From assembly GCA_013817245.1 (NCBI GenBank), contig JACDDA010000006.1, positions 62,001-126,000 on the forward strand: a DNA stretch of 64,000 bases, read 5' to 3'. Made by a program: the position numbers and the translations under genes. The DNA comes from Gammaproteobacteria bacterium (GTDB taxonomy: Bacteria; Pseudomonadota; Gammaproteobacteria; HTCC5015). Below are positions 27,135 to 41,507 of the stretch, in pieces. Numbering within the stretch: the first letter of the stretch is position 1; each line of letters begins with the position of its first letter. The notes under the pieces are model-generated. The model did not search any database. It was not told where the DNA came from and worked only from the letters and a program-made list of their open reading frames with translations.

Positions 27135-27848
27135 TTAAGAACGGCCGTGTACAACTGCTTCAATTTGTTCCAAGCTAACGTGACGCACGTCTTTACCTTT
27201 CACCATAAAAATTACATATTCACAAATGTTCTTGGCGTGATCGCCAATACGCTCTAAAGCGCGAGCGCACCACATCACTTGTAACACATGACGAATCGAA
27301 CGCGGATCTTCCATCATATAAGTAATTAACTGACGCATTAAGCCTTCAAACTCAGTATTCACAGCCTCGTCTTCTGCGGCCACACGTACCGCTTGTACAT
27401 CGTCCATACGCGCAAAGGCATCTAACGCATCGTGCAATTCTTTACGCACGTGATGACCCAGATGTTTAAGCTGCGTAAAATAACCAGGTGCACGATCTGT
27501 AGTGGCTAACTCTACTGAAAAACGTCCAATTTTTTCAGCTTCATCACCAATACGTTCTAAATCAGTAATCGTTTTTAATATCGCAACGATTGCACGCAAA
27601 TCACTCGCCGCAGGCTGACGCAGTGCAATAACTTTTGTGCACAGTTCATCAATCTCTACTTCCATAGCATTTACTTTAAAATCAGACGCCGCCACGATAC
27701 CGCCTAAAGCGCCATCACTATCAATTAATGCCTTTAAACCATCGGCCACTTGTTTTTCTACCAAGCCACCCATCGCGAGTACTTTATTGCGTACCATTTC
27801 CATGTCTTGTTCGAACTGATGCGAAGTATGTCCGCCTAATTTATTCAT
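27135..27848 (-). CDS. phoU: Phosphate signalling protein PhoU
   Basis: 237 residues of two tandem three-helix PhoU domains; the repeated pattern appears as [20 protein letters not shown] in the first half and [19 protein letters not shown] in the second, each with the metal-binding E-x-x-x-D type motif. PhoU links the Pst transporter state to PhoR and holds the Pho regulon off when phosphate is plentiful. It is last in the minus-strand pst run, 45 bases after pstB. Confidence 0.95.
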
Positions 27849-27893
27849 AAACGTATCCCTTAAACTGTAGTGACGGTTACAATCGAAATGGTT

Positions 27894-28760
27894 TTAACCA
27901 AAACGGCCCGTAATATAATCTTCTGTTAATTTATGCGATGGATTCGTGAAAATATCAGACGTTGTACCTACTTCAATTAAACGTCCCATATGAAAGTAGG
28001 CTGTGCGTTGCGATACACGTGCGGCTTGTTGCATAGAATGCGTCACAATCGCAATGGTGTAGTTCTGCCGTAACTCGGTCATCAACTCTTCAATTTTAGC
28101 AGTGGCAATAGGATCTAATGCCGAACAAGGTTCATCCATTAAAATCACATCAGGACTAACTGCAATGGTGCGCGCAATACATAAACGTTGTTGTTGACCA
28201 CCTGACAAACCCGTGCCGGCTTGATCTAAACGATCTTTAACTTCATTCCATAAACCCGCTCTTTCCAACGACGTCGTCACAATTTCATCTAGTTCTGCTT
28301 TGTGTTCTGCTAAACCATGAATGCGGGGACCATAAGCAACATTGTCATAAATTGATTTAGGAAAAGGATTCGGTTTTTGGAAGACCATACCGATGCGGGC
28401 GCGCAACGGTACTACATCTAATTTTTTATCATGAATATCTTGGCCATCTAATTCAATTTTACCGGTCACACGACAGCTATCAATCGTATCATTCATGCGA
28501 TTTAAGCAACGTAAAAAAGTTGATTTGCCGCAACCTGATGGGCCAATCATCGCAATCACTTGATTCGCGCCAATATCCAAACTGACATTTTGAATAGCTT
28601 GTTTTTCGCCGTAATACACATTGACATCACGGATCACCATACGCGGATTAGCGGCGGTAATGTCACCGACTGTGCCCTCAAACGCAATATCTTGACCACC
28701 AGAAAAATCACTCATTTTGCTCTCACCTATATCAAAGGCACTTGATGCTACTGTGCTCAT
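27894..28760 (-). CDS. pstB: Phosphate ABC transporter ATPase PstB
   Basis: 288 residues; Walker [21 protein letters not shown]-loop [20 protein letters not shown], signature [16 protein letters not shown], Walker [14 protein letters not shown] and the H-loop [11 protein letters not shown]. It powers phosphate import together with PstA and PstC. The N-terminal 35 residues before [17 protein letters not shown] are longer than in E. coli; the ATG at 28760 has AGGAA upstream, so the extension is probably real. pstA lies 34 bases upstream. Confidence 0.95.
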
Positions 28761-28794
28761 ATTTTATTCCTCATCTAACATCGTATCAAAAGGC

Positions 28795-30084
28795 TTACCA
28801 ACGGCGCTCAAATCTTTTACGTAATAAGACCGCGAATAAATTCATCGTTACTAAAAAAGCCAACAAAACCATAATCGCCGCCGAGGTCAATGCCACAAAA
28901 CCTCGTTCTGGACTATCAGACCACAAATAAATTTGTACCGGCAACACGGTTGCTGCTGACAATGGATCAGTAGGAATATCAACAATAAAAGCGACCATAC
29001 CAATCATTAACAACGGTGCTGTTTCACCTAACGCATGGGCAACACCAATAATGGCGCCAGTTAACATGCCTGGCATTGCTAACGGTAATACGTGATGCGT
29101 AACAACTTGCATCTTTGATGCACCAATACCGAGTGCTGCTTCTCGAATAGAAGGTGGTACGGATTTAATTGCAGCACGACCGGCGATAATAATCGTCGGC
29201 AATGTCACCAACGCCAACACAATACCGCCCACTAACGGCACCGAGCGCGGCATGCCAAAGAAATTTAAAAATACCGCTAGACCCAATAAACCGAATACGA
29301 CAGAAGGCACTGCAGCAAGATTATTGATATTGACTTCAATCATGTCAGTCCAAATATTTTTAGGCGCAAATTCTTCCAAATAAATTGCGGCCGCAATACC
29401 AATGGGGAATGCCAACAACAAGGTCACTAAAATCGTATACAAAGAACCAATTAACGCGCCTTTAATGCCTGCTAATTCTGGATCGCGCGAATCACCGGCA
29501 GTAAATAAGGTCCAGTTAAAGCGGGCTTCAATAGCATTTTCTTGTTCTAACTGTTTTAACCACGTTAATTGATTATCATTTAAACGACGATCAGCTTCAG
29601 CGCCCGTCGTGTCCATCAAACCTTTATGATAGGTGTCGACGTCATCATCAGCCAATATCCAAATACTTTTTTGCGTGTTTAACCATTGTGGATTATCTAG
29701 AAATTGATCGCTTAATTTATAAGAAGCACCTGTACTGACCATGCTATTAAGCTGTCTTTTTGCTGCTCTATCAGTAGCCTCCGGAAATTTATTCCGTAAC
29801 GCTTCTCTAATCACGCCTTGAAAATCAGCTTGTTGAACAGCTGCTTTATCATTGACATCATTAATACCTAAGGTAGCCGCATCAAAAACGATATCTAGCT
29901 TAATGTAGGTTTGATAAAACGCAGGCAAACCGCTACTGACTATAGACGTCAATAAAGTCGCTAAAAAACCTAAAGCTAAAATAATCGACAATAAACCTAA
30001 AAAACGGAAGCGTCGTTCAGAACGATAGCGTTTTTTCAAACTCGCTTCGACGCGTTCTGCGGTATTTTTAATTTTATTACTCAT
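28795..30084 (-). CDS. pstA: Phosphate permease subunit PstA, long form
   Basis: 429 residues against about 296 in E. coli. After the first membrane helix (about 28-50) comes an extra region of roughly 130 residues, largely hydrophilic and probably periplasmic, that resembles the DUF3333 extension of some PstA proteins; the six-helix permease core begins near GALIGSLYTILVTLLLAFP. The cytoplasmic coupling motif is EAALGIGASKMQVVTHHVLPLA. The ATG has GGGAG upstream and overlaps the pstC end by 8 bases. Confidence 0.93.
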   Translation of the reverse strand: MSNKIKNTAERVEASLKKRYRSERRFRFLGLLSIILALGFLATLLTSIVSSGLPAFYQTYIKLDIVFDAATLGINDVNDKAAVQQADFQGVIREALRNKFPEATDRAAKRQLNSMVSTGASYKLSDQFLDNPQWLNTQKSIWILADDDVDTYHKGLMDTTGAEADRRLNDNQLTWLKQLEQENAIEARFNWTLFTAGDSRDPELAGIKGALIGSLYTILVTLLLAFPIGIAAAIYLEEFAPKNIWTDMIEVNINNLAAVPSVVFGLLGLAVFLNFFGMPRSVPLVGGIVLALVTLPTIIIAGRAAIKSVPPSIREAALGIGASKMQVVTHHVLPLAMPGMLTGAIIGVAHALGETAPLLMIGMVAFIVDIPTDPLSAATVLPVQIYLWSDSPERGFVALTSAAIMVLLAFLVTMNLFAVLLRKRFERRW

Positions 30085-31465
30085 ACTGCTCCCGATATTT
30101 CTTCACTATATGTAATGCAAATATATTCAAACACAAAGTAATAAAGAACAACAACAAACCTAAGGCAAATGCCGCTAAGGTTTTCGGACTATCAAATTCT
30201 TGATCACCTACTAACAACGTCACAATCTGCACTGTCACCGTGGTTACCGATTCCAATGGATTCGCGGTTAGTTTTGCCGATAGACCAGCGGCCATTACTA
30301 CAATCATGGTTTCACCAATCGCTCGCGAAGCCGCTAACAAAATACCGCCCATCACACCGGGTAAGGCCGCGGGCAATACCACTTGGCGTATCGTTTCTGA
30401 ACGAGTAGAACCCAACGCATACGCGCCATCGCGTAATGATTGCGGCACTGCATTTATCACGTCATCTGATAATGATGAAACAAACGGAATAATCATAATC
30501 CCCATGACCACGCCTGCGGCTAGCGCACTTTCCGATGACACATCTAATCCCATCGATGTACCCCAACTACGAAACAGCGGAGCAACAACTAACACTGCAA
30601 AAAAACCGTACACCACGGTAGGAATACCGGCCAACACTTCGATTAATGGTTTTACATAAGTACGCACACGCTTATCGGCATACTCTGCCAAATAAATTGC
30701 CGACATTAATCCAACAGGGACTGCAACCACCATCGCGATAAATGAAATTAATAAAGTACCTGCCACCAACGGCACGGTACCAAAAGCACCTGACGAACCC
30801 TCTTGATCGGCACGAATCGCCATTTGTGGTGACCATTGCAAACCAAATAAGAATTCAGTCAGTGGCACTATTTGGAAAAAGCGAATCGATTCAAATAAAA
30901 CCGATAACAAAATACCTAACGTCGTTAAAACCGCAATAGTTGAACTTAAAATTAAAAAAAGTTTAATAAAGGTTTCAACATGGGTGCGTGCGCGTAAGGT
31001 CGGTCGAATCCGACTAAACGTTAAACCGGCGCCCAACGCTGCAATTAATAAAACCAACACAGCTTTAGCTGCGTCAGCCGTCTGCACTAAGGATTTATAA
31101 CGTTGTGCAGCCGCTTGGATAAATTCTTCGTAACTGGATAAATTTTCAACACTGCTTTGTGCAGCATTTTTAATATCATTAATTACCAAACTCATTCTTG
31201 CGTCGTCTAAATGCGCTTGTTCCGCAGGTAATTCACGGACTACTAATTGAGTAATAATTTGATCTTGAAATACCATCCAAACCAACAAAAACAACACCGC
31301 AGGTACGGCGCACCATAATGCGGTTAGATGGCCGTAATAGCCCGGTAACGCTGCTAAGTCGCGCGTTTTACCAGGGCCAACGACCGCGAGCGAACGCTTT
31401 AATCCAAAATAATAAGCTAACAGTGTGCAGCCGAGAATCAGCAAAACCAATGTTGATGTATTCAT
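30077..31465 (-). CDS. pstC: Phosphate permease subunit PstC, long form
   Basis: 462 residues, longer than E. coli PstC (about 319). Two N-terminal hydrophobic helices bracket an extra segment of about 90 residues with helical, charged content (RELPAEQAHLDDARMSLVINDIK), and another helix follows before the core. The core has AVPVGLMSAIYLAEYADKRVR and the coupling loop DGAYALGSTRSETIRQVVLPAALPG. It overlaps pstA by 8 bases. An intrinsic terminator in the 154-base pstS-pstC gap suggests that the permease genes are expressed less than pstS. Confidence 0.93.
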   Translation of the reverse strand: MNTSTLVLLILGCTLLAYYFGLKRSLAVVGPGKTRDLAALPGYYGHLTALWCAVPAVLFLLVWMVFQDQIITQLVVRELPAEQAHLDDARMSLVINDIKNAAQSSVENLSSYEEFIQAAAQRYKSLVQTADAAKAVLVLLIAALGAGLTFSRIRPTLRARTHVETFIKLFLILSSTIAVLTTLGILLSVLFESIRFFQIVPLTEFLFGLQWSPQMAIRADQEGSSGAFGTVPLVAGTLLISFIAMVVAVPVGLMSAIYLAEYADKRVRTYVKPLIEVLAGIPTVVYGFFAVLVVAPLFRSWGTSMGLDVSSESALAAGVVMGIMIIPFVSSLSDDVINAVPQSLRDGAYALGSTRSETIRQVVLPAALPGVMGGILLAASRAIGETMIVVMAAGLSAKLTANPLESVTTVTVQIVTLLVGDQEFDSPKTLAAFALGLLLFFITLCLNIFALHIVKKYREQYE

Positions 31466-31529
31466 ATGTTTTTCTATCCAAATCTACAATTGCTAAACGA
31501 ATTATAAAATTGCATCGCTTTTTAACACT

Positions 31530-31560
31530 TAAAAAACTGGGCGATTCATCACCGCCCAGT
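31530..31560 (-). terminator. Intrinsic terminator between pstS and pstC
   Basis: On the minus strand ACTGGGCGG and CGCCCAGT pair around an 8-base loop and are followed by TTTTTTAAG. It lies 60 bases after the pstS stop and 65 before the pstC start. Partial read-through would yield many pstS transcripts and fewer pstCAB-phoU transcripts. Confidence 0.8.
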
Positions 31561-31619
31561 CATTTTTAGATCGCTCATCCTTGTGCACTGTGTTATTCAC
31601 ACCGTAATTTTTCAAATAA

Positions 31620-32672
31620 TTATTTCAATTCTTTACTATAGAGCTTGGTTTTAGCTTTAACACTAGACACTACAGCTTTGTATTTATCAGCTGGCAACGG
31701 TACTAAACCACGTTCGGTTAAGTAGCCTTCTTCGCCCATCGCTTTTTCGCTGATGAACTCTTCAACGTATTCAAACAAACCTCGTACACGACCGATATGG
31801 TCTTTCTTCACATAGAAGAACATAGGACGCGCAATAGGATATTTGCCAGAAGCGATACTTTCAAAAGTAGGTGCATTACCATCAATAATAGAACCCTGAA
31901 CCTTGTCAGCATTTTGATCTAAGAAACTAAAACCAAACACGCCTAAAGCATGCGGGTTCGCGCCTAATTTTTGTACGATTAAGTTATCGTTTTCACCGGC
32001 TTCGATGTAATGACCATCTTCACGCAACGTGCGGCAAGATTTTTCCCAGGCTTTTTTATCGATAATGAGGGTTTTCACTGCAGGAACTTTTTTGCAGCCG
32101 CCTTCGATTGCCAATTCATTGAAAGAATCACGGGTACCTGAAGTAGGCGGCGGTCCGATAACTTCAATTTTTTCTTTAGGCAAGCTTGGGTTTACATCGC
32201 TCCACAACTTATTGGGATTAGGAATCATTTTTTTGCCGGCTGCATCGGGCACTTCACGTGCTAATGCCAAATAAAGATCCTTCAAGCTAATGTTCCATTG
32301 TTTAGCGGTTTTTGAATTTGCAATTACAATGCCGTCATAACCAATTGGAACTTCAATAATATCTTTCACGCCATTTTCACGGCATTTTTCGAATTCGCTT
32401 AATTTAATACGACGTGACGCATTCGCTATATCAGCATACTCAACGCCTACACCTTCGCAAAACAATTTCAAACTACCACCGGTACCGTGTGATTCCACTT
32501 TAGGGGTTTTAAAGCCACTGCTTTTACCAAATTTTTCAGCAACGACTGTTGAAAAAGGATAAACAGTTGAAGAGCTAACAATAAATACATAATCACGAGC
32601 TGCTGCCAACGCGCTGGTTGACATAACGGCCAACAACGAAAGCGCTGTCACTGCTGTTAATAGTTTTTTCAC
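31620..32672 (-). CDS. pstS: Phosphate-binding periplasmic protein PstS
   Basis: I choose the GTG at 32672: GGAGG lies 5 bases before it, and it gives a clean signal peptide (MKKLLTAVTALSLLAVMS, cleavage near STSALA). An ATG 11 codons upstream would disrupt both. The mature protein has 350 residues including the signal and shows the phosphate-site blocks VSSSTVYPFSTVVAEKF, GTGGSLKLFCEGVG, NASRRIK and PPTSGTRDSFNELAIEGGC. It delivers phosphate to PstCA. A PhoB box with a -10 lies about 190 bases upstream, and the leader contains a long inverted repeat. Confidence 0.92.
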   Translation of the reverse strand: MKKLLTAVTALSLLAVMSTSALAAARDYVFIVSSSTVYPFSTVVAEKFGKSSGFKTPKVESHGTGGSLKLFCEGVGVEYADIANASRRIKLSEFEKCRENGVKDIIEVPIGYDGIVIANSKTAKQWNISLKDLYLALAREVPDAAGKKMIPNPNKLWSDVNPSLPKEKIEVIGPPPTSGTRDSFNELAIEGGCKKVPAVKTLIIDKKAWEKSCRTLREDGHYIEAGENDNLIVQKLGANPHALGVFGFSFLDQNADKVQGSIIDGNAPTFESIASGKYPIARPMFFYVKKDHIGRVRGLFEYVEEFISEKAMGEEGYLTERGLVPLPADKYKAVVSSVKAKTKLYSKELK

Positions 32673-32705
32673 AAGAACCTCCAAAAAAGACATTAGAAAG
32701 AACAA

Positions 32706-32843: not shown

Positions 32844-32877
32844 AGTGTATGTATTAAATGTGACAGATTTGTTACAA
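32844..32877 (-). promoter_or_regulatory. PhoB box and -10 of pstS
   Basis: Minus-strand TTGTAACAAATCTGTCAC (32877-32860) matches the E. coli Pho box CTGTCATAWAWCTGTCAY at 15 of 18 positions. After exactly 10 bases comes TACACT (32849-32844) as -10. The 10-base spacing equals that of E. coli phoA. Confidence 0.75.
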
Positions 32878-32897: not shown

Positions 32898-34202
32898 CTA
32901 GCGCGGTTGCACCACGACCCGATGCGCTGGAAAAACGACCCGGAATTGGCTGCCCACGCCGGCCGTGCTGTGAATATCAAAAGTCGCTTGGTGACGGGCA
33001 ACGACGTGTTTAACAATTGATAAACCCAAGCCACTACCGCCTTTATCCCGCGCCCGACCGGCATCAACGCGATAAAAACGTTCGGTTAACCGCGGTATAT
33101 GCTCTATCGGAATGCCGGGACCTTGGTCAATCACTTCAAAAATCGCACCCTGTTCACCGTGCAAATGCCAATGCACTTGCACCGCCGTATCGGCAGGCGT
33201 GTGTCGAATAGCGTTGTAAACCAGATTTGATAATAAACTGCGCAATTCCGTGTCGGCGCCCAATAGACACAGGCTTTCATCCACGTCCCAGGTCAGTTTA
33301 TGCCCCGTATTGGCTGTCAGATGCAGGGCTTCTTCGCGCAAACTCGCCAATATAGAAGGCACATGGACACGTTGTTCGGGGGCCGCGCGGCCATCGTTTT
33401 CAAGGCGAGATAATTCTAATAAATCATGCACGATGTGTTGCAAACGCAAACCTTGTTGACGCACCGAACGCAAAATATGACGTTGTTCTTCATCAAAACT
33501 TTCGTCATCGGCCAAGGTTTCAAGATAGCCTGTCATCACGGTCAGCGGTGTGCGTAGTTCATGCGACACATTGGCCACAAAATCTTTGCGCATGGTTTGC
33601 GCGCGCATTAAGGTGCTGACATCACGCGCAGTAAACAAACGCGAATCATCAGCAAACCGAATCACGCGGATGTTTAAGGTCATGCGTTCATCAACAGGCG
33701 CCAATAAATTCAAGGTTTCTTCCGTATCAGGACCGGTAATATATTCATGAAACGCAGGATCACGAATCAAGTTATCAATGCGTTGACCAAAATCTTGCGG
33801 CGTGCGAATGCCGAGTAATTGCTCAGCGGTATTATTAGCCCATTCGATTTCTAAATTATTGCGCAATAAAACCGTGGCATCGGGTAATGCGGCGGCAGTG
33901 GCTTGAAAACGTTGTAACACTTGGCGTAGATGTTGTTTGCGTTGTTGATGTCGACGTTGAATGCGAAACACATAACGCGCCAGTTGTTCCCATACGCCTG
34001 AAAAATCCGGTACTCGATCAATATCTGCACCACTTTCTAACCAACGGGATAAGCGTTTCGCTTGATAAAAATGCCAGGCCAACAATAAGGCCGATGCCAC
34101 TCCTAAGCCTAAACTCCACAATCCTGTCAATAAACCGAATAACAATGCGAAAAAAAGCGCAACTACAATGCGCCAGCGTTCGACAATCCAATATTCGATC
34201 AT
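32898..34202 (-). CDS. phoR: Phosphate regulon sensor kinase PhoR
   Basis: 434 residues. Two membrane helices near the N-terminus (about 12-45), a linker, a PAS domain (about 95-200; ATVLLRNNLEIEWANNTAEQLLG), then HisKA with FVANVSHELRTPLTVMTGYLE (phospho-His) and the HATPase domain with NLVYNAIRHTP (N box), VIDQGPGIP (G1) and GGSGLGLSIVKH (G2). In the phosphate-starved state it phosphorylates PhoB; it is controlled by Pst and PhoU. phoB lies 57 bases upstream in transcription order, so phoB-phoR are co-transcribed. Confidence 0.95.
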   Translation of the reverse strand: MIEYWIVERWRIVVALFFALLFGLLTGLWSLGLGVASALLLAWHFYQAKRLSRWLESGADIDRVPDFSGVWEQLARYVFRIQRRHQQRKQHLRQVLQRFQATAAALPDATVLLRNNLEIEWANNTAEQLLGIRTPQDFGQRIDNLIRDPAFHEYITGPDTEETLNLLAPVDERMTLNIRVIRFADDSRLFTARDVSTLMRAQTMRKDFVANVSHELRTPLTVMTGYLETLADDESFDEEQRHILRSVRQQGLRLQHIVHDLLELSRLENDGRAAPEQRVHVPSILASLREEALHLTANTGHKLTWDVDESLCLLGADTELRSLLSNLVYNAIRHTPADTAVQVHWHLHGEQGAIFEVIDQGPGIPIEHIPRLTERFYRVDAGRARDKGGSGLGLSIVKHVVARHQATFDIHSTAGVGSQFRVVFPAHRVVVQPR

Positions 34203-34259: not shown

Positions 34260-34970
34260 TCACTTAAAAGAAAAGCGATAACCCGACCCGCGTACCGTTT
34301 GAATTAAAGCATCGAAATTATACGGCTTTAAGAGCTTGCGTAGGCGTAAAACATGCACGTCGACGGTACGATCTTCGACATAGGCATTGCGCCCCCAGAC
34401 GTGATCTAACAATTGCGCGCGATTATAAACACGATCAGGGTGATTCATAAAAAATTGCAGTAAACGAAATTCGGTCGGACCCATGTTAATTTCTTTATTT
34501 TTCGCTAAGACTCGATGCGCACTAGGATCTAAAACTAAATCGCCAAACGCCAAGGAAATCCCTTGTTCCGTAGGTTCTATGCGCCGTAATAAAGCGCGAA
34601 TACGGGCGACGAGTTCTTTGGGTGAAAAAGGTTTGGTTAAATAATCGTCGGCACCTGAATCTAGCCCGTGGACTTTATCGTCTTCATCGCCACGGGCGGT
34701 CAACATAATGATCGGAATTTGGCGGGTCAATTCATCGCGTTTAAAACGGCGGATTAATTCGATGCCACTGACGTCGGGTAACATCCAATCCATCAAAATC
34801 ACATCGGGCAATTTATCCGCAAGCTGCACTTGCGCCCGCTGCCCATCGGCAGCTTCTAAACACTCCAAACCTGCACGGCGCAAGGCAAAACTAATCATTT
34901 CCCGAATCGCTTGTTCGTCTTCAACGATCAATACGCGTTTGCCGCTCATTGCATTGTTCATAGCATTCAT
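34260..34970 (-). CDS. phoB: Phosphate response regulator PhoB
   Basis: 236 residues: a receiver domain (VLIVEDEQAIRE with the acidic pair, DVILMDWMLPD with the phospho-Asp, IIMLTARGDE, YLTKPFSPKEL) and an OmpR-type winged-helix DNA-binding domain (GPTEFRLLQFFMNHPDRVYNR, EDRTVDVHVLRLRKLL, TVRGSGYRFS). Three in-frame ATGs occur close together; 34970 or 34949 could be used. A Pho box and good -10 lie about 70-105 bases upstream, indicating autoregulation. Confidence 0.95.
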   Translation of the reverse strand: MNAMNNAMSGKRVLIVEDEQAIREMISFALRRAGLECLEAADGQRAQVQLADKLPDVILMDWMLPDVSGIELIRRFKRDELTRQIPIIMLTARGDEDDKVHGLDSGADDYLTKPFSPKELVARIRALLRRIEPTEQGISLAFGDLVLDPSAHRVLAKNKEINMGPTEFRLLQFFMNHPDRVYNRAQLLDHVWGRNAYVEDRTVDVHVLRLRKLLKPYNFDALIQTVRGSGYRFSFK

Positions 34971-35041: not shown

Positions 35042-35075
35042 ATTCTATGAAGCGAAAATGACAATTCCGTGACAG
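35042..35075 (-). promoter_or_regulatory. PhoB box and -10 of phoB
   Basis: Minus-strand CTGTCACGGAATTGTCAT (35075-35058) has both 7-base half-sites of a Pho box (CTGTCA and TTGTCA in 11-base register). Ten bases later TAGAAT (35047-35042) matches the -10 consensus at 5 of 6 positions. This predicts autoregulation of phoBR. Confidence 0.75.
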
Positions 35076-35148
35076 TTAAGAAGTTTTGTCATATCTATTA
35101 AGTATCTCCAGACGTATTCACCTAGTCTGTCCTAAGCCTTTCATGGTT

Positions 35149-35182
35149 ATGTCATAAAACTATCACATTCAGATTATAGATT
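35149..35182 (+). promoter_or_regulatory. PhoB box and -10 of the aquaporin-arsC pair
   Basis: ATGTCATAAAACTATCAC (35149-35166) matches the Pho box consensus at 16 of 18 positions. Exactly 10 bases later comes TAGATT (35177-35182) as -10. The start codon follows only 6 bases behind the -10. Confidence 0.75.
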
Positions 35183-35188
35183 ACTCAC

Positions 35189-35872
35189 ATGCGTGCTTAT
35201 CTTGCGGAATTACTCGGAACCTTTGGTCTGGTGCTGGTCGGCACGGGCGCCATTATCGTTAATGATGTCAGTGGTGGTCTACTGGGCAATGCGGGCATTG
35301 CACTGGCCTTTGCGGTAATCGTATTCCTTATGATATGTAGCTTTGCCCATCTCTCCGGCGCACATATTAATCCGGCGGTTAGCATGGTCTTCGCGCTAAC
35401 GGGCCATTTGGCGTGGCGCAAGCTAGGTAACTATTGGTTGGCGCAATGTTGCGGCGCTTTACTTGCCAGCGGCTTATTACACTTACTGTTTCAACATGCC
35501 ACTTTAGGCGCTACGGTGCCTACGCCTAAATATCCAGCACTCTTAGCCTTTGGCTTAGAAATCGTCATTAGCAGTATTTTGATGCTGAGTATTTTTTATG
35601 TAATACAGCAACATTTTTCACGTATCAAAAGTGCGGCCTTAATTGGTAGCGTAGTAGGTTTAGCGGCTTTTTTGGTAGGCCCGCTAACGGGCGCATCGAT
35701 GAATCCTGCACGATCGTTAGGTCCCGCTTTAATCAGCGGTCATTTTCAACATTTATGGATTTATTTAACCGCGCCGATATTAGGCATGTTGTTGGCGGTG
35801 CCCGCCTGCCAAAAAATTACCCGTAAAACCCTCTGCGCCAGTGGCGCTTGCTGTAATGAGGTCCCCGCATGA
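35189..35872 (+). CDS. Aquaporin (MIP family), AqpS-like
   Basis: 227 residues, six membrane helices and two half-helices with NPA motifs: GAHINPAVSM (NPA 61-63) and GASMNPARSLGP (NPA 172-174, with the selectivity-filter Arg at 175). The start MRAYLAELLGTFGLVLVGTGA is the usual one, so the ATG at 35189 is firm although no Shine-Dalgarno is visible. The C-terminal tail has an unusual LCASGACC cysteine cluster (C216, C221, C222). Its stop overlaps the arsC-like start (ATGA). The pairing resembles the AqpS-ArsC arsenic module known in Sinorhizobium, so it probably lets arsenite leave the cell; this is inference. Confidence 0.85.
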   Translation: MRAYLAELLGTFGLVLVGTGAIIVNDVSGGLLGNAGIALAFAVIVFLMICSFAHLSGAHINPAVSMVFALTGHLAWRKLGNYWLAQCCGALLASGLLHLLFQHATLGATVPTPKYPALLAFGLEIVISSILMLSIFYVIQQHFSRIKSAALIGSVVGLAAFLVGPLTGASMNPARSLGPALISGHFQHLWIYLTAPILGMLLAVPACQKITRKTLCASGACCNEVPA

Positions 35873-36282
35873 AAACCACGCTGCCACTGAATACATCTAA
35901 AAACGTCGTGTTCGTTTGTGTTGAAAACAGTTGCCGCAGTCAAATAGCCGAAGGTTTTGCGCGTTTACACCAACGCGCTGACGTGATTATTTATAGCGCG
36001 GGTTCGAAGCCTTCTGGCGTTATTAATCCGCGCGCCATTCAATTTATGCAAGAAGTGGGCAGTGATCTGACGAGGCAAGGCTCTAAATCATTAGACGAGA
36101 TTCCCGATATCGTTTATGACGCAGTCATCACCATGGGCTGCGGCGATGCGTGTCCGTTTTTGCGTGGCAAATTCCGCGAAGATTGGGGTTTGGCCGATCC
36201 TAAACATTTAAGCGACGATGAATTTCGCGCCATTCGTGACACTATTCAAACGCGTGTTGCCGCACTGTTCCAGCAAATCTAA
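35869..36282 (+). CDS. arsC: Arsenate reductase of the LMW-phosphatase (thioredoxin-coupled) type
   Basis: 137 residues with the low-molecular-weight phosphatase loop CVENSCRSQ (nucleophile C17, loop C22, R23) that resembles the CTGNSCRSQ loop of plasmid pI258 ArsC. A second cysteine pair occurs in MGCGDACPF (C91, C95), placed like the redox pair of thioredoxin-dependent arsenate reductases, and DWGLADPK supplies the acid Asp. It should reduce arsenate to arsenite; a protein-tyrosine phosphatase role is the alternative, less likely with these Cys. It is coupled to the aquaporin by a 4-base overlap and shares its Pho-box promoter. Confidence 0.82.
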   Translation: MKTTLPLNTSKNVVFVCVENSCRSQIAEGFARLHQRADVIIYSAGSKPSGVINPRAIQFMQEVGSDLTRQGSKSLDEIPDIVYDAVITMGCGDACPFLRGKFREDWGLADPKHLSDDEFRAIRDTIQTRVAALFQQI

Positions 36283-37323: not shown

Positions 37324-39504
37324 ATGGCAATGCCAGCGGATTCTTTTATGCCCAATGCAAGCTTAGATCCTGTTCACTTAGATGATCCGTCTTTATATCT
37401 TAATCGCGAACTGACGTGGTTACGCTTTAACGAACGTGTTTTGCATGAAGCAGAAATTGCCAGCAATCCGTTGTTGGAAAAATTAAAATTTATCGCCATC
37501 GTAAGTTCTAATCTAGACGAATTTTTTATGAAACGCATTGGCGGCTTAAAAGAACAAGTCGGCGCCGGCGTACAAGAGCTCACCCTTGACGGTCGTAATC
37601 CGCAACAACAAATTGATGAATGCGCTGAACATGTACGCGCACTGGAAGCCCGCAAATCTCAATTATTACCCAAAATTCTTAATGACTTGCATAATGCGGG
37701 TATTCGCATTTTGAATTATCAAGATTTAAAAAAATCGAAATGCGCATTATTACGAGACTATTACATTCATAATATTTTCCCCTTAGTAACGCCGCAATCA
37801 ATTGATCCTGCACATCCGTTCCCTTTTATTTCAAATTTATCGTTAAATTTATTGGTGACTCTGCGTCATCCAAAAAACCAACAAGCTTTATTAGCTCGCG
37901 TTAAAGTACCGATTGGAAATGGCATTCATCGTTTCATCGCTTTAGAAAAAGAAGATAGACAACAAAACTACGTTGAATACGTGCGTCTTGAAGACATTAT
38001 TGGCAACAATTTAGATATTTTATTTCCAGGCATGGAAGTGCTGGCTTACGAGTGTTTTCACGTCACTCGAAATTCCAACACGGAACGTGATGAATCCAAT
38101 GCCGATGATTTATTAGAATTGATCGAATCCGAATTACGTGATCGCAAATTTGCACCGATTGTACGTATTGTTGTAGAGCACAATATGGACACACAACGAC
38201 GTCAATTCCTGATTAACGAATTAGGTTTGCAGCAACAAGATGTTTATGACACTGAACACATGATGGCCTTGCGCGATTTATGGGAGCTGGTTGGGATTGA
38301 ACGCCCTGATTTACATGACACGCCGCATCATCCTTTAGATCATCCCTTGCTCAGCGCGCATCAATCTATTTTTACTGCTATTCGCGAAAACAATGGCATT
38401 TTTTTACATCATCCTTACGATAGTTTTGCCACATCAGTAGAACGCTTAGTGAAAGAAGCGCGCCATGACCCGGCCGTACGCGCGATTAAGATGACGATTT
38501 ATCGCACGTCAAAAGACACTAAAATTATTGAATATCTAATTGACGCCGCGCGTAACGGCAAACAAGTTGCGGTAGTGATGGAATTAAAAGCGCGCTTTGA
38601 TGAAGCCGCCAATATTCATTGGGCGAACAGTTTAGAAGAAGCCGGCATCCACGTAACCTATGGCGTGGTCGGACTCAAAACTCATGCAAAAGTTATTTTA
38701 GTTGTACGCCAAGAGGAAGAAGGTTTGCGCCGTTACATGCACATCGGCACGGGTAATTACCATGCGGGCACCGCACGTTTATATACGGACGTGGGTTTAT
38801 TAACATGCGATACGGATATTGCGCATGATGTCAGCGAATTATTTAATTTTTTAACCACGGGTTATACGCCAAAACGCGATTACCGAAAATTATTACCCGC
38901 GCCTACTTTATTAAAACAAAATTTAATAAAAAAGATTAATCGCGAAATCGCGCATGCCAAAGAAGGCAAAAAAACCGCCATTCAATTCAAAATGAATGCG
39001 CTGGAAGATATTGATATTTGTAAGGCCTTGTATCAAGCCTCACAAGCTGGCGTGACAGTGCAGTTAATCGTGCGTGATACGTGTCGTCTGCGTCCTGGGA
39101 TTAAAGACATTTCAGATAATATTCATGTCATCAGTATTGTTGGAAGATTTTTAGAACACGCGCGGATTTATTATTTTTATAATAATGGTCAAGAAGAATA
39201 CTATATTGGTTCTGCCGATCTAATGATGCGCAATTTAGAACGACGCGTTGAAGTAGTAACGCCGGTAGAACCTGAACATTTGTCTCAACATTTACGAACG
39301 ATCTTAGATATTAATTTAGCGGATCAGCGTAATGTCTGGGAGATGCAAGCAGATGGGCATTATCTGCAACGCCAACCTAAAGACGCTGAAACAAAAGGTT
39401 GTCAGGAATTATTTATCGAGCTTGCCCAAAAACGCGGAAAAACTCGTTTGGCTAAAAGCAACAAAGGTCTCTCAAAAAAACGTCGCAAACGTCAAGGCGT
39501 ATAG
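37324..39504 (+). CDS. ppk: Polyphosphate kinase PPK1
   Basis: 726 residues; transfers the gamma-phosphate of ATP to polyphosphate. N-terminal domain with YLNRELTWLRFNERVLHEA, the head domain with SSNLDEFFMKRIGGL, and two phospholipase-D-like C-terminal domains. The catalytic His residues are near 454 (VVGLKTHAKV) and near 612 (RFLEHARIYYF), with the same spacing as His435/His592 of E. coli. The C-terminal tail is basic (KGLSKKRRKRQG). A Pho box upstream indicates PhoB control. Its 3' end overlaps sixA by 13 bases, tail to tail, and ppx lies 0.5 kb further on. Confidence 0.95.
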   Translation: MAMPADSFMPNASLDPVHLDDPSLYLNRELTWLRFNERVLHEAEIASNPLLEKLKFIAIVSSNLDEFFMKRIGGLKEQVGAGVQELTLDGRNPQQQIDECAEHVRALEARKSQLLPKILNDLHNAGIRILNYQDLKKSKCALLRDYYIHNIFPLVTPQSIDPAHPFPFISNLSLNLLVTLRHPKNQQALLARVKVPIGNGIHRFIALEKEDRQQNYVEYVRLEDIIGNNLDILFPGMEVLAYECFHVTRNSNTERDESNADDLLELIESELRDRKFAPIVRIVVEHNMDTQRRQFLINELGLQQQDVYDTEHMMALRDLWELVGIERPDLHDTPHHPLDHPLLSAHQSIFTAIRENNGIFLHHPYDSFATSVERLVKEARHDPAVRAIKMTIYRTSKDTKIIEYLIDAARNGKQVAVVMELKARFDEAANIHWANSLEEAGIHVTYGVVGLKTHAKVILVVRQEEEGLRRYMHIGTGNYHAGTARLYTDVGLLTCDTDIAHDVSELFNFLTTGYTPKRDYRKLLPAPTLLKQNLIKKINREIAHAKEGKKTAIQFKMNALEDIDICKALYQASQAGVTVQLIVRDTCRLRPGIKDISDNIHVISIVGRFLEHARIYYFYNNGQEEYYIGSADLMMRNLERRVEVVTPVEPEHLSQHLRTILDINLADQRNVWEMQADGHYLQRQPKDAETKGCQELFIELAQKRGKTRLAKSNKGLSKKRRKRQGV

Positions 39505-39971
39505 CGCTCGATTAAATACGCGGCGCCTGCGGATAAATTTGGCCACGCGCCTTGAAATTGAAAAATAACTGCACCCGCCGTTGGTAATGCAGGCATGCTC
39601 TTATTTACTAACACATTGGCAAGATCGCTCAAGCCGGGATTATGACCAATTAAAATCACATGATGCGCGGCGGCGGGTAAACCTTGTAAGCTTTTTATCA
39701 AATGATCTGTATTAGCTAAATACAAGTCTGCACGATAATCCACGTTAATATCGCTAAATCCAGCCAACAACGCTGCGCACGTTTGGCGAGTGCGTATCGA
39801 TGACGAACACAAAACATAATCTATCGCTTGACTACGTGCGGCGAACCATGTGTTTAGCGCCGCCATGCTCTCTTGTCCGGTCGCACTCAAATTACGCTGA
39901 ATATCAACACTGGCCTCTACCGCTTCGGCATGCCTAATAAGACAAAGGGTTTTTTGTGCTCGCTCTGGCAT
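39492..39971 (-). CDS. sixA: Phosphohistidine phosphatase SixA
   Basis: 159 residues of the histidine phosphatase superfamily: TLCLIRHAEAV (nucleophilic His in the RH motif), YVLCSSSIRTRQTCAAL (second Arg), and VILIGHNPGLSDLANVL (second His). Lengths and motifs fit SixA, which in E. coli dephosphorylates the nitrogen-PTS protein NPr. It sits tail-to-tail with ppk (13-base overlap) and is divergent from ppx with 45 bases between the starts, which must hold both promoters. Confidence 0.9.
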   Translation of the reverse strand: MPERAQKTLCLIRHAEAVEASVDIQRNLSATGQESMAALNTWFAARSQAIDYVLCSSSIRTRQTCAALLAGFSDINVDYRADLYLANTDHLIKSLQGLPAAAHHVILIGHNPGLSDLANVLVNKSMPALPTAGAVIFQFQGAWPNLSAGAAYLIERYTP

Positions 39972-40016
39972 AATAAAACAATAACTCTTTAATATAAGTA
40001 ATGCATTGGATACTAA

Positions 40017-41507
40017 ATGTTTGATAAAACCAAATTAATCGTAGTAGTGGATCTAGGTTCCAATAGCTTTCACATGACCGTCACACGGTCTCATGATGGC
40101 CAGCTTACCGTAATCGATAGCTTAAAGGAAAGTGTTCGGCTCGCCGCCGGCGTGACTGCTGAACACACGCTCGATACCGTCACACAAAAACGTGCCTTAG
40201 AATGTTTAGCGCGTTTCGCGCAACGCTTACAAAATATTAAACATGATGGTATACGCGTCGTCGGTACTAATGCACTGCGCCAAGCTCATCAAGCCGAAGA
40301 CTTTGTGGCATTAGCAGAAAAAACGTTAGGCCATCGAATTGACATTATTTCTGGTATTGAAGAAGCACGGTTAATTTATGCCGGTGTTTATCAAGATCAT
40401 CCCTTACCTGAACGCCGCAACTTAGTCATTGATATCGGTGGCGGCAGTACCGAATTTATTATTGGTGAAGGTCCAACCCCGCGTACGCTTGAAAGTTTAT
40501 ACATGGGCTGCGTTAATTTTACGCGCCGGTTTTTTGACGCCGGTTATTCGCATAAACGTATGCAACAAGCGATTACCGCTGCACGTCAAGAACTAGAACC
40601 CATTGAAATTTCTTTTCGTGCATTAGGCTGGCAACATGTATTAGGTTCTTCAGGCAGCATTCGCAGCATTGAAGATACCTTGTTGCAACTTAAACTCAGC
40701 GAGCACGGTATTACTGCCAGTGGACTTAAAAAATTGCATCAACTGCTAGCCAAAGACGACAGATTGCCGAACTTAAGCGCTGATCGCCGGCCGGTGTTTT
40801 TTGGTGGTTTAGCTATTTTAACTGCTGCATTTGATGCTTTAAATATTGAACACATGGAATATTCTAACAGCGCATTACGCGAAGGCGTATTACATGAATT
40901 GCTCGGTCGGCAACGCCAAAATGATGTGCGCAATACTACCATTCAACATTTTGTACAACGTTATGCAATTGATAAAACCCATGCGCAACGTGTGCAAAAA
41001 ACCGCGCGATCTTTTTATCAACAAGCTCAAATCAATTGGTTATTGAGTAACGATAATAAAGAACTAGCGGATTACCTAGATTGGGCGGCGCAGTTACATG
41101 AAATCGGTTTGGCCGTGGCGCACAGCGGTTATCATCGCCATGGCGCTTATTTATTACGCCATTCTGATATGCCGGGATTTTCGATACGCGAACAAAAATA
41201 TTTAGCGCTACTCGTCAATGCGCATCGTCGAAAAATTCGTGCTGAGTACTTCAAAGAAATCTCCAGCGTAGAGCGGCCTATTTTATTAAAATTATTATTA
41301 ATACTGCGTATATCCGTGCTACTACATCGCAATCGATTAGATAATTTTTTACCTGACTTAAAAATCAGCGCGCATTTACAAGGGATAACATTGTCGATTG
41401 CAGAAAAATGGTTGCAAGAACATCCGTTGACCTTGGCGGATATCCAAGAAGAACAAAAACACTGGAGTAATAATGGTTTTGAGTTATTGCTTAAAACTCA
41501 GCTCTAA
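40017..41507 (+). CDS. ppx: Exopolyphosphatase
   Basis: 496 residues of the Ppx/GppA family (actin-like ATPase fold): VVDLGSNSFHMTVTR, VVGTNALRQA, ISGIEEARLIYAGV (catalytic Glu), VIDIGGGSTEFIIGE, LGSSGSIRSIE, then the C-terminal HD-like domain (AAQLHEIGLAVAHSGYHRHGAYL). It releases phosphate from polyphosphate ends; the GppA activity on pppGpp is possible but the length and position near ppk favour Ppx. No Pho box is seen in the 45 bases upstream, so the degrading enzyme may not be phosphate controlled in the way ppk is. Confidence 0.92.
   Translation: MFDKTKLIVVVDLGSNSFHMTVTRSHDGQLTVIDSLKESVRLAAGVTAEHTLDTVTQKRALECLARFAQRLQNIKHDGIRVVGTNALRQAHQAEDFVALAEKTLGHRIDIISGIEEARLIYAGVYQDHPLPERRNLVIDIGGGSTEFIIGEGPTPRTLESLYMGCVNFTRRFFDAGYSHKRMQQAITAARQELEPIEISFRALGWQHVLGSSGSIRSIEDTLLQLKLSEHGITASGLKKLHQLLAKDDRLPNLSADRRPVFFGGLAILTAAFDALNIEHMEYSNSALREGVLHELLGRQRQNDVRNTTIQHFVQRYAIDKTHAQRVQKTARSFYQQAQINWLLSNDNKELADYLDWAAQLHEIGLAVAHSGYHRHGAYLLRHSDMPGFSIREQKYLALLVNAHRRKIRAEYFKEISSVERPILLKLLLILRISVLLHRNRLDNFLPDLKISAHLQGITLSIAEKWLQEHPLTLADIQEEQKHWSNNGFELLLKTQL

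Follow-up and report, generated by a model that had tools for sequence, protein, structure and literature searches.

Known channel-reductase systems and their links with phosphate

In textbook arsenic resistance, the genes are switched on by arsenic itself, via ArsR. AqpS-ArsC pairs and fusions are an established variety of arsenate resistance in which a MIP channel is coupled to an arsenate reductase (PMC6205960; PMC4531530; PMC4435449). The pair of Sinorhizobium meliloti and the fusion of Salinispora tropica both release arsenite through the channel and not through a pump, and both are described within ars operons (PMC6205960; PMC4531530).

A coupling between arsenic genes and phosphate starvation has also been reported. 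In the SAR11 strain Pelagibacter HTCC7211, a LMWPc_ArsC gene is followed downstream by AqpS, and arsC is upregulated 2.3-fold upon phosphate starvation; moreover, SAR11 arsC becomes more frequent as ocean phosphate falls (PMC6426599). The arsenite oxidase genes aioBA are under the control of PhoB in Halomonas HAL1 (PMC4563254) and in Agrobacterium (PMC7533571), and arsenic islands carrying pst operons are known (PMC3834237). In Nodularia, a gene group comprising arsJ, GAPDH and sphX responds modestly to phosphate limitation (PMC9846622).

The locus discussed here lies in a 64-kb stretch of DNA, the window, taken from a genome of 2.27 Mb in 20 contigs that is scored as 100% complete. Like the systems of S. 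meliloti and S. tropica, it consists of a MIP channel with two NPA motifs (aqp) coupled with arsC. Unlike these systems, it has no ArsR in the operon, and predicted PhoB sites precede it beside the pst and phoBR genes. It shares a same-fold arsC and an aquaporin gene with Pelagibacter HTCC7211, but there arsC comes first, and the passages of that report consulted here do not describe a PhoB site or pst synteny, whereas the order in the window is aqp-arsC behind a Pho-type promoter. With aioBA and the arsenic islands it would have in common the action of PhoB on arsenic genes at low phosphate, as well as the neighbourhood of ars and pst genes. Those cases, however, concern arsenite oxidation and specialized, arsenic-induced pst1 copies, while the present one would combine reduction with passive efflux next to pst-phoBR in a small genome. 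We estimate the probability that aqp-arsC is a PhoB-controlled two-gene arsenate detoxification unit, forming part of the phosphate-starvation regulon, at about 0.75. As AqpS-ArsC is known and the induction of SAR11 arsC by phosphate starvation has been published, the locus represents, with good support, a known detoxification pair under variant regulation and not a new system. The idea is also less new than the original prediction implied, since arsenic-Pho coupling has precedents. In the open literature, to which the search was mostly confined, subscription journals lying largely outside it, no description of a Pho box on aqp-arsC or of pst-linked pairs was found.

The aqp-arsC gene pair

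The channel gene aqp (35189-35872, + strand) encodes a protein of 227 amino acids with the PF00230 domain (E-value 1.3e-44). It is followed by arsC (35869-36282, + strand), encoding a protein of 137 amino acids with the fold of low-molecular-weight protein tyrosine phosphatases (LMWPc, PF01451, E-value 1.3e-18). Both reading frames share four bases, ATGA (35869-35872), and a GAGG that is the likely Shine–Dalgarno sequence of arsC, as read directly from the DNA, lies within the 3′ end of aqp (35858-35861, + strand) at a spacing of 7 nt. The pair had been proposed to be a translationally coupled unit of a MIP channel and an arsenate reductase, and both domains, the overlap and the internal GAGG bear this out. 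It is located between the divergent phoB (- strand, start at 34970) and nadC (36388). With a GC content of 0.49 and a GC3 of 0.48, both genes are similar to their neighbors, and GC and GC3 give no signal of transfer. No known RNA families were found in the region, nor was a convincing sigma-70 -35 promoter or a terminator.

In ArsC, the P-loop reads CVENSCRS and CGDAC forms a second pair of cysteines, features that correspond to the CX5R loop and additional cysteines of pI258-type enzymes. The spacing within this second pair resembles that of the Corynebacterium glutamicum enzyme (3t38) and differs from that of pI258. The best matches among solved structures are all arsenate reductases, 3t38 at the top, followed by 2l17, 1jl3 and 1jf8. 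The enzyme had been described as a thioredoxin-type arsenate reductase. The fold and the motifs of an arsenate reductase are indeed present, but thioredoxin is at most a candidate electron donor, as all models of both types stay far below their curated cut-offs: the thioredoxin-coupled, pI258-type models PRK13530 and TIGR02691 give 82.7 of 215 bits and 78.2 of 174.3 bits, respectively, and the glutaredoxin-type model TIGR02689 gives 90.8 bits against an NCBIfam cut-off of 157.6.

For the channel, the best match among solved structures is rice NIP2-1 (Lsi1), a metalloid channel for silicon and arsenic, followed by water channels such as AQP4. The ar/R selectivity filter reads F-A-A-R, while that of the water channel AqpZ, F-H-T-R, is narrower. 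The filter was considered as proof of arsenite selectivity and dropped, because F-A-A-R is near-universal among the MIP relatives compared, whether paired with arsC or not. It therefore argues only against a strict water channel of the AqpZ type.

A predicted Pho-type promoter upstream of aqp

In the 218-bp gap between phoB and aqp, four tandem predicted PhoB half-sites occur on the + strand with a period of 11 bases (35127-35166): CTGTCCT at 35127, CTTTCAT at 35138, ATGTCAT at 35149 and CTATCAC at 35160, separated by the spacers AAGC, GGTT and AAAA. Together the units match the consensus at 23 of 28 positions. This four-unit array has the highest score on either strand of the 64-kb window, the next independent site scoring 19. 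Among 60 random first-order Markov sequences of 64 kb, scanned on one strand, the mean maximum was 17.5 and the highest value 20, and a score of 20 was absent from 20,000 random sequences with the 218-bp length of the intergenic region. The Pho box first proposed here (ATGTCAT-AAAA-CTATCAC, 35149-35166) is real, but represents the last two units of an array larger than described.

At exactly 10 nt past the last half-site lies the -10-like hexamer TAGATT (35177-35182, + strand), which is weak, with four of six matches. A -10 at the correct spacing, as originally predicted, is therefore confirmed. The region upstream of aqp shows the features by which promoters of the PhoB regulon are recognized, i.e., at least two 7-bp repeats with 4-bp spacers and a -10 about 10 nt downstream, no -35 being required, in a genome that encodes PhoB and PhoR. 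In a combined test, a two-unit box with a score of at least 10 of 14 was followed by a -10 with at least four of six matches, including A at the second and T at the sixth position. Six sites in the window passed at spacings of 9 to 11 nt, against about 1.7 per strand expected by chance. Only three have a spacing of exactly 10 nt, and these stand before aqp (35149, + strand), phoB (35058, - strand) and pstS (32860, - strand). The aqp-arsC promoter hence has an architecture in common with two core phosphate promoters.

Since the -10 ends 6 nt before the ATG, transcription is predicted to start close to this codon, giving a nearly or fully leaderless aqp transcript, a feature absent from the original prediction. 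A Shine–Dalgarno sequence before aqp is absent when the DNA is read directly. The channel may then be translated from a leaderless mRNA (35177-35189), and arsC from its own GAGG within the aqp frame.

Genome-wide, the pattern CTGTCAT-N4-CTGTCAT gives 17 matches, compared to four for the reversed pattern. A wider Pho regulon is not claimed from these matches, most of the nine other sites inspected being intragenic.

The phosphate gene neighborhood

The pair had been predicted to lie beside the pst genes, and the genes for PhoB, PhoR, PstS and PstC-PstA-PstB-PhoU are all identified on the opposite strand. The response regulator gene phoB (34260-34970, - strand), divergent from aqp, reaches 347 bits with TIGR02154 (cut-off 296), and the sensor kinase gene phoR (32898-34202, - strand) is above the cut-offs of TIGR02966 and PF11808. 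The predicted Pho box of phoB, CTGTCACGGAATTGTCAT (35058-35075, - strand), matches at 12 of 14 positions and lies 10 nt before TAGAAT (35042-35047). That of pstS, TTGTAACAAATCTGTCAC (32860-32877, - strand), matches at 10 of 14 positions, with TACACT located 10 nt downstream. The high-affinity phosphate uptake operon pstS-pstC-pstA-pstB-phoU, the proposed entry route of arsenate, extends over 27135-32705 (- strand). On the other side, nadC is followed by ppk, a SixA-like histidine phosphatase gene and ppx (37324-41507), so that a phosphorus gene cluster of about 14 kb runs from phoU to ppx.

The sister genus G002 has kept the gene order from pst over phoR and phoB to nadC, but the gap between phoB and nadC is filled by a sodium:alanine symporter gene. 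Since the surrounding order is shared and a different gene occupies the gap, aqp-arsC was probably inserted at this position in the window. The phoB gene of G002 has its own box-like sequence. A strong Pho-like box, TTGTCACAAAACTGTCAT, is also seen there just before the ATG of the symporter gene, on the strand opposite to it (L148, 9250-11142). Another family member, G003, carries an unrelated aqp-arsC pair, with a channel of a different clade and another arsC type, away from pst.

Search for other arsenic genes in the genome

The arsenite pumps that characterize canonical ars operons were not found in the genome, neither ACR3 (TIGR00832) nor ArsB (PF02040), although both models give matches in control genomes. 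The only MIP channel of the genome is aqp. No HTH_5 protein is encoded near the pair, which agrees with the earlier statement that no arsR lies here, and by the models used there is no arsenic-type ArsR in the genome. The one ArsR-family (HTH_5) protein is encoded on another contig in an unrelated operon, beside a SRPBCC-like gene, and has 110 amino acids with, as read, a single cysteine. Should aqp-arsC function in arsenic handling, no other recognizable arsenic system accompanies it in the genome, and with ACR3 and ArsB missing, the channel would be the only recognizable route for arsenite, a passive one.

Recurrence of the pair beside pst genes

To place the pair in a wider context, 99 related MIP loci were compared, mostly from metagenome-assembled genomes. 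They comprise the 80 best of a GTDB scan together with class and Verrucomicrobiota samples, one duplicate having been removed. An arsC gene accompanies the channel in 45 of them, of which 22 are linked to ArsR or DUF6428 genes and four to pst, and a link to pst is absent from all 54 loci that lack arsC (Fisher p = 0.04). Pairs linked to ArsR therefore outnumber those linked to pst, and most paired relatives are linked either to ArsR/DUF6428 genes or to neither these nor pst, with the proviso that the ArsR search used two query sequences, so that the remaining loci may hide regulators. In eight verrucomicrobial loci (L134-L140 and L142), a DUF6428-like gene is regularly found ahead of aqp-arsC. 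In the high-GC gammaproteobacterium G562, a VOC-family gene lies just upstream of an arsC-like locus (L119, 981-1466), an arrangement that resembles the order ArsR-VOC-aqp-arsC of L078, L083 and L087.

In all four pst-linked loci, the pair directly adjoins the pst genes, and the two ArsR queries give no match. The gammaproteobacterium CSMAG_2548 (L059) has the order pstC-pstA-pstB-phoU-aqp-arsC. In a member of the Verrucomicrobiaceae (L015), aqp-arsC is divergent from pstS-pstC-pstA-pstB, and in a member of the Spartobacteria, also Verrucomicrobiota (L034), the order is pstS-arsC-aqp. In the Caldilineaceae MAG CHL12 (L069), pstSCAB and aqp are followed by ArsC and PhoU in one ORF. Four direct adjacencies compare with about 0.03 expected, a rough figure that assumes three adjacent slots in 4000 genes plus operon numbers. 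Locus L070, from Acidobacteria, lies near a phoB/phoR-like pair; as it lacks pst genes, it was not counted.

In the MIP tree, the four pst-linked loci represent four separate changes, at least three of which are forced by starred branches, and the channel of the window stands apart. The arsC genes involved fall into three motif types. The channel tree and these motif types indicate that the pst-linked pairs have independent origins, and thus a recurrence and not a single inherited block.

The ORF of CHL12 (L069, 6658-7830) is an uninterrupted reading frame of 391 amino acids right behind pstSCAB-aqp, with an ArsC domain (LMWPc) at residues 6-131 and PhoU domains from about residue 182. In this single MAG, it is an apparent ArsC-PhoU fusion within a pst operon.

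The locus of CSMAG_2548 resembles the window in its promoter. Its operon is preceded by TTGTAACAAAACTGTCAT, with TATCAT 10 nt further on, so that box and -10 are arranged as they are before aqp in the window. It also shares the arsC motif type and has linked phoB-phoR genes, located just upstream of the pst operon. In contrast to the window, the pair is found at the end of the pst operon and has no divergent promoter of its own, and the channel belongs elsewhere in the MIP tree. Five genomes from the taxonomic order of CSMAG_2548 gave no second pair. A search for the same Pho box in front of aqp-arsC homologs had been suggested; the locus of CSMAG_2548 is the only one to pass the full box and -10 test. 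Over 88 loci, the gene strand gives two-unit box scores no higher than the opposite strand does, and for these reasons we make no claim that the box itself is conserved. Distant phyla may use other forms of the Pho box.

Proposed mechanism and alternative explanations

As judged from the DNA, the interpretation of the original prediction, i.e., Pho control together with a role in arsenic, is supported. When phosphate is scarce, PhoR would phosphorylate PhoB, and PhoB~P bound to the half-site array of the phoB-aqp gap would turn on phoBR, pst and aqp-arsC. The Pst pump would import arsenate together with phosphate, ArsC would reduce it to arsenite, and the channel would serve as the exit of uncharged As(OH)3 down its gradient. 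The translation of ArsC would be coupled to that of the channel, and phosphate scarcity would take the place of an arsenic sensor. Two proteins with a passive exit would suit a low internal level of arsenite made from arsenate. Such a pair would give no protection from external arsenite, as is the case in S. meliloti (PMC6205960). In this scheme the gene content, the promoter architecture and the recurrence beside pst are observations, while we infer PhoB binding, induction, arsenate as the substrate of ArsC, arsenite as the cargo and flux of the channel, and an arsenic phenotype. Several observations speak against this reading: the -10 of aqp is weak and implies a leaderless start lacking a Shine–Dalgarno sequence, most arsC-paired relatives are tied to ArsR/DUF6428 genes or to neither these nor pst, a Pho box of this architecture precedes one other pair only, G003 has its unrelated pair away from pst, and the F-A-A-R filter is common to paired and unpaired relatives.

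The pair could be Pho-controlled for a purpose other than arsenic, the channel carrying water, glycerol or some other small neutral molecule in lipid or osmotic remodeling during phosphate starvation, and the enzyme acting on phosphotyrosine or small phosphoesters. Phosphatases are abundant in Pho regulons, PF01451 also covers true tyrosine phosphatases, ArsC remains below the curated cut-offs of arsenate reductase models, and, after the metalloid channel, the next solved matches of the channel are water channels. Nevertheless, we hold this to be unlikely: the best homologs with solved structures are arsenate reductases in every case and share the P-loop of the enzyme, whose extra CxxxC pair is missing from tyrosine phosphatases. 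Furthermore, a MIP channel is paired with ArsC in 45 further loci, of which 22 are ArsR/DUF6428-linked, and AqpS-ArsC pairs and fusions are established in arsenate resistance (PMC6205960).

Doubt may also concern the control and not the function. The Pho sites could serve the autoregulation of phoB only, aqp-arsC having been inserted alongside with another promoter or constitutive expression. The weak -10 of aqp would fit, as would the sister genus G002, where phoB keeps its own box with a different gene in the gap. Yet phoB has a correctly spaced box of its own on the - strand, the four-unit array is separate from it and directed at aqp on the + strand, again with correct spacing, and in other lineages the pair is found inside or against pst operons, which leaves this explanation marginally less probable than the previous one. 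That aqp-arsC is a conventional ars unit under a distant ArsR, with a Pho box of little effect, is highly improbable. ArsR is able to act in trans and one HTH_5 protein is present in the genome, but its position beside a SRPBCC-like gene is a common non-arsenic arrangement, it has a single cysteine in 110 amino acids, and neither ArsB nor ACR3 accompanies it.

Biological meaning of the proposed phosphate-linked arsenic pair

If the PhoB-controlled detoxification unit proposed here is induced by phosphate hunger, it would provide feed-forward protection, the cell being armed as the high-affinity pump opens, when the As:P ratio is likely at its worst. Arsenate tolerance is then predicted to be set by phosphate status and phoB, and not by prior exposure to arsenic. 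Somewhat more tentatively, we favor by a small degree the view that bacteria of different phyla have independently recruited aqp-arsC into the phosphate-starvation program, at least four or five times, with no arsenic sensor and up to a physical fusion of ArsC to the Pho signaling protein PhoU. In such bacteria resistance would belong to phosphate scavenging as an anticipatory component and would not be an induced stress response. An aqp-arsC pair in or against pst could be a genomic marker for life at low phosphate with trace arsenate, which would fit the ocean-wide pattern of SAR11 arsC. That unrelated bacteria carry the same pair by their phosphate genes looks as if arsenate poisoning were a predictable price of phosphate scavenging.
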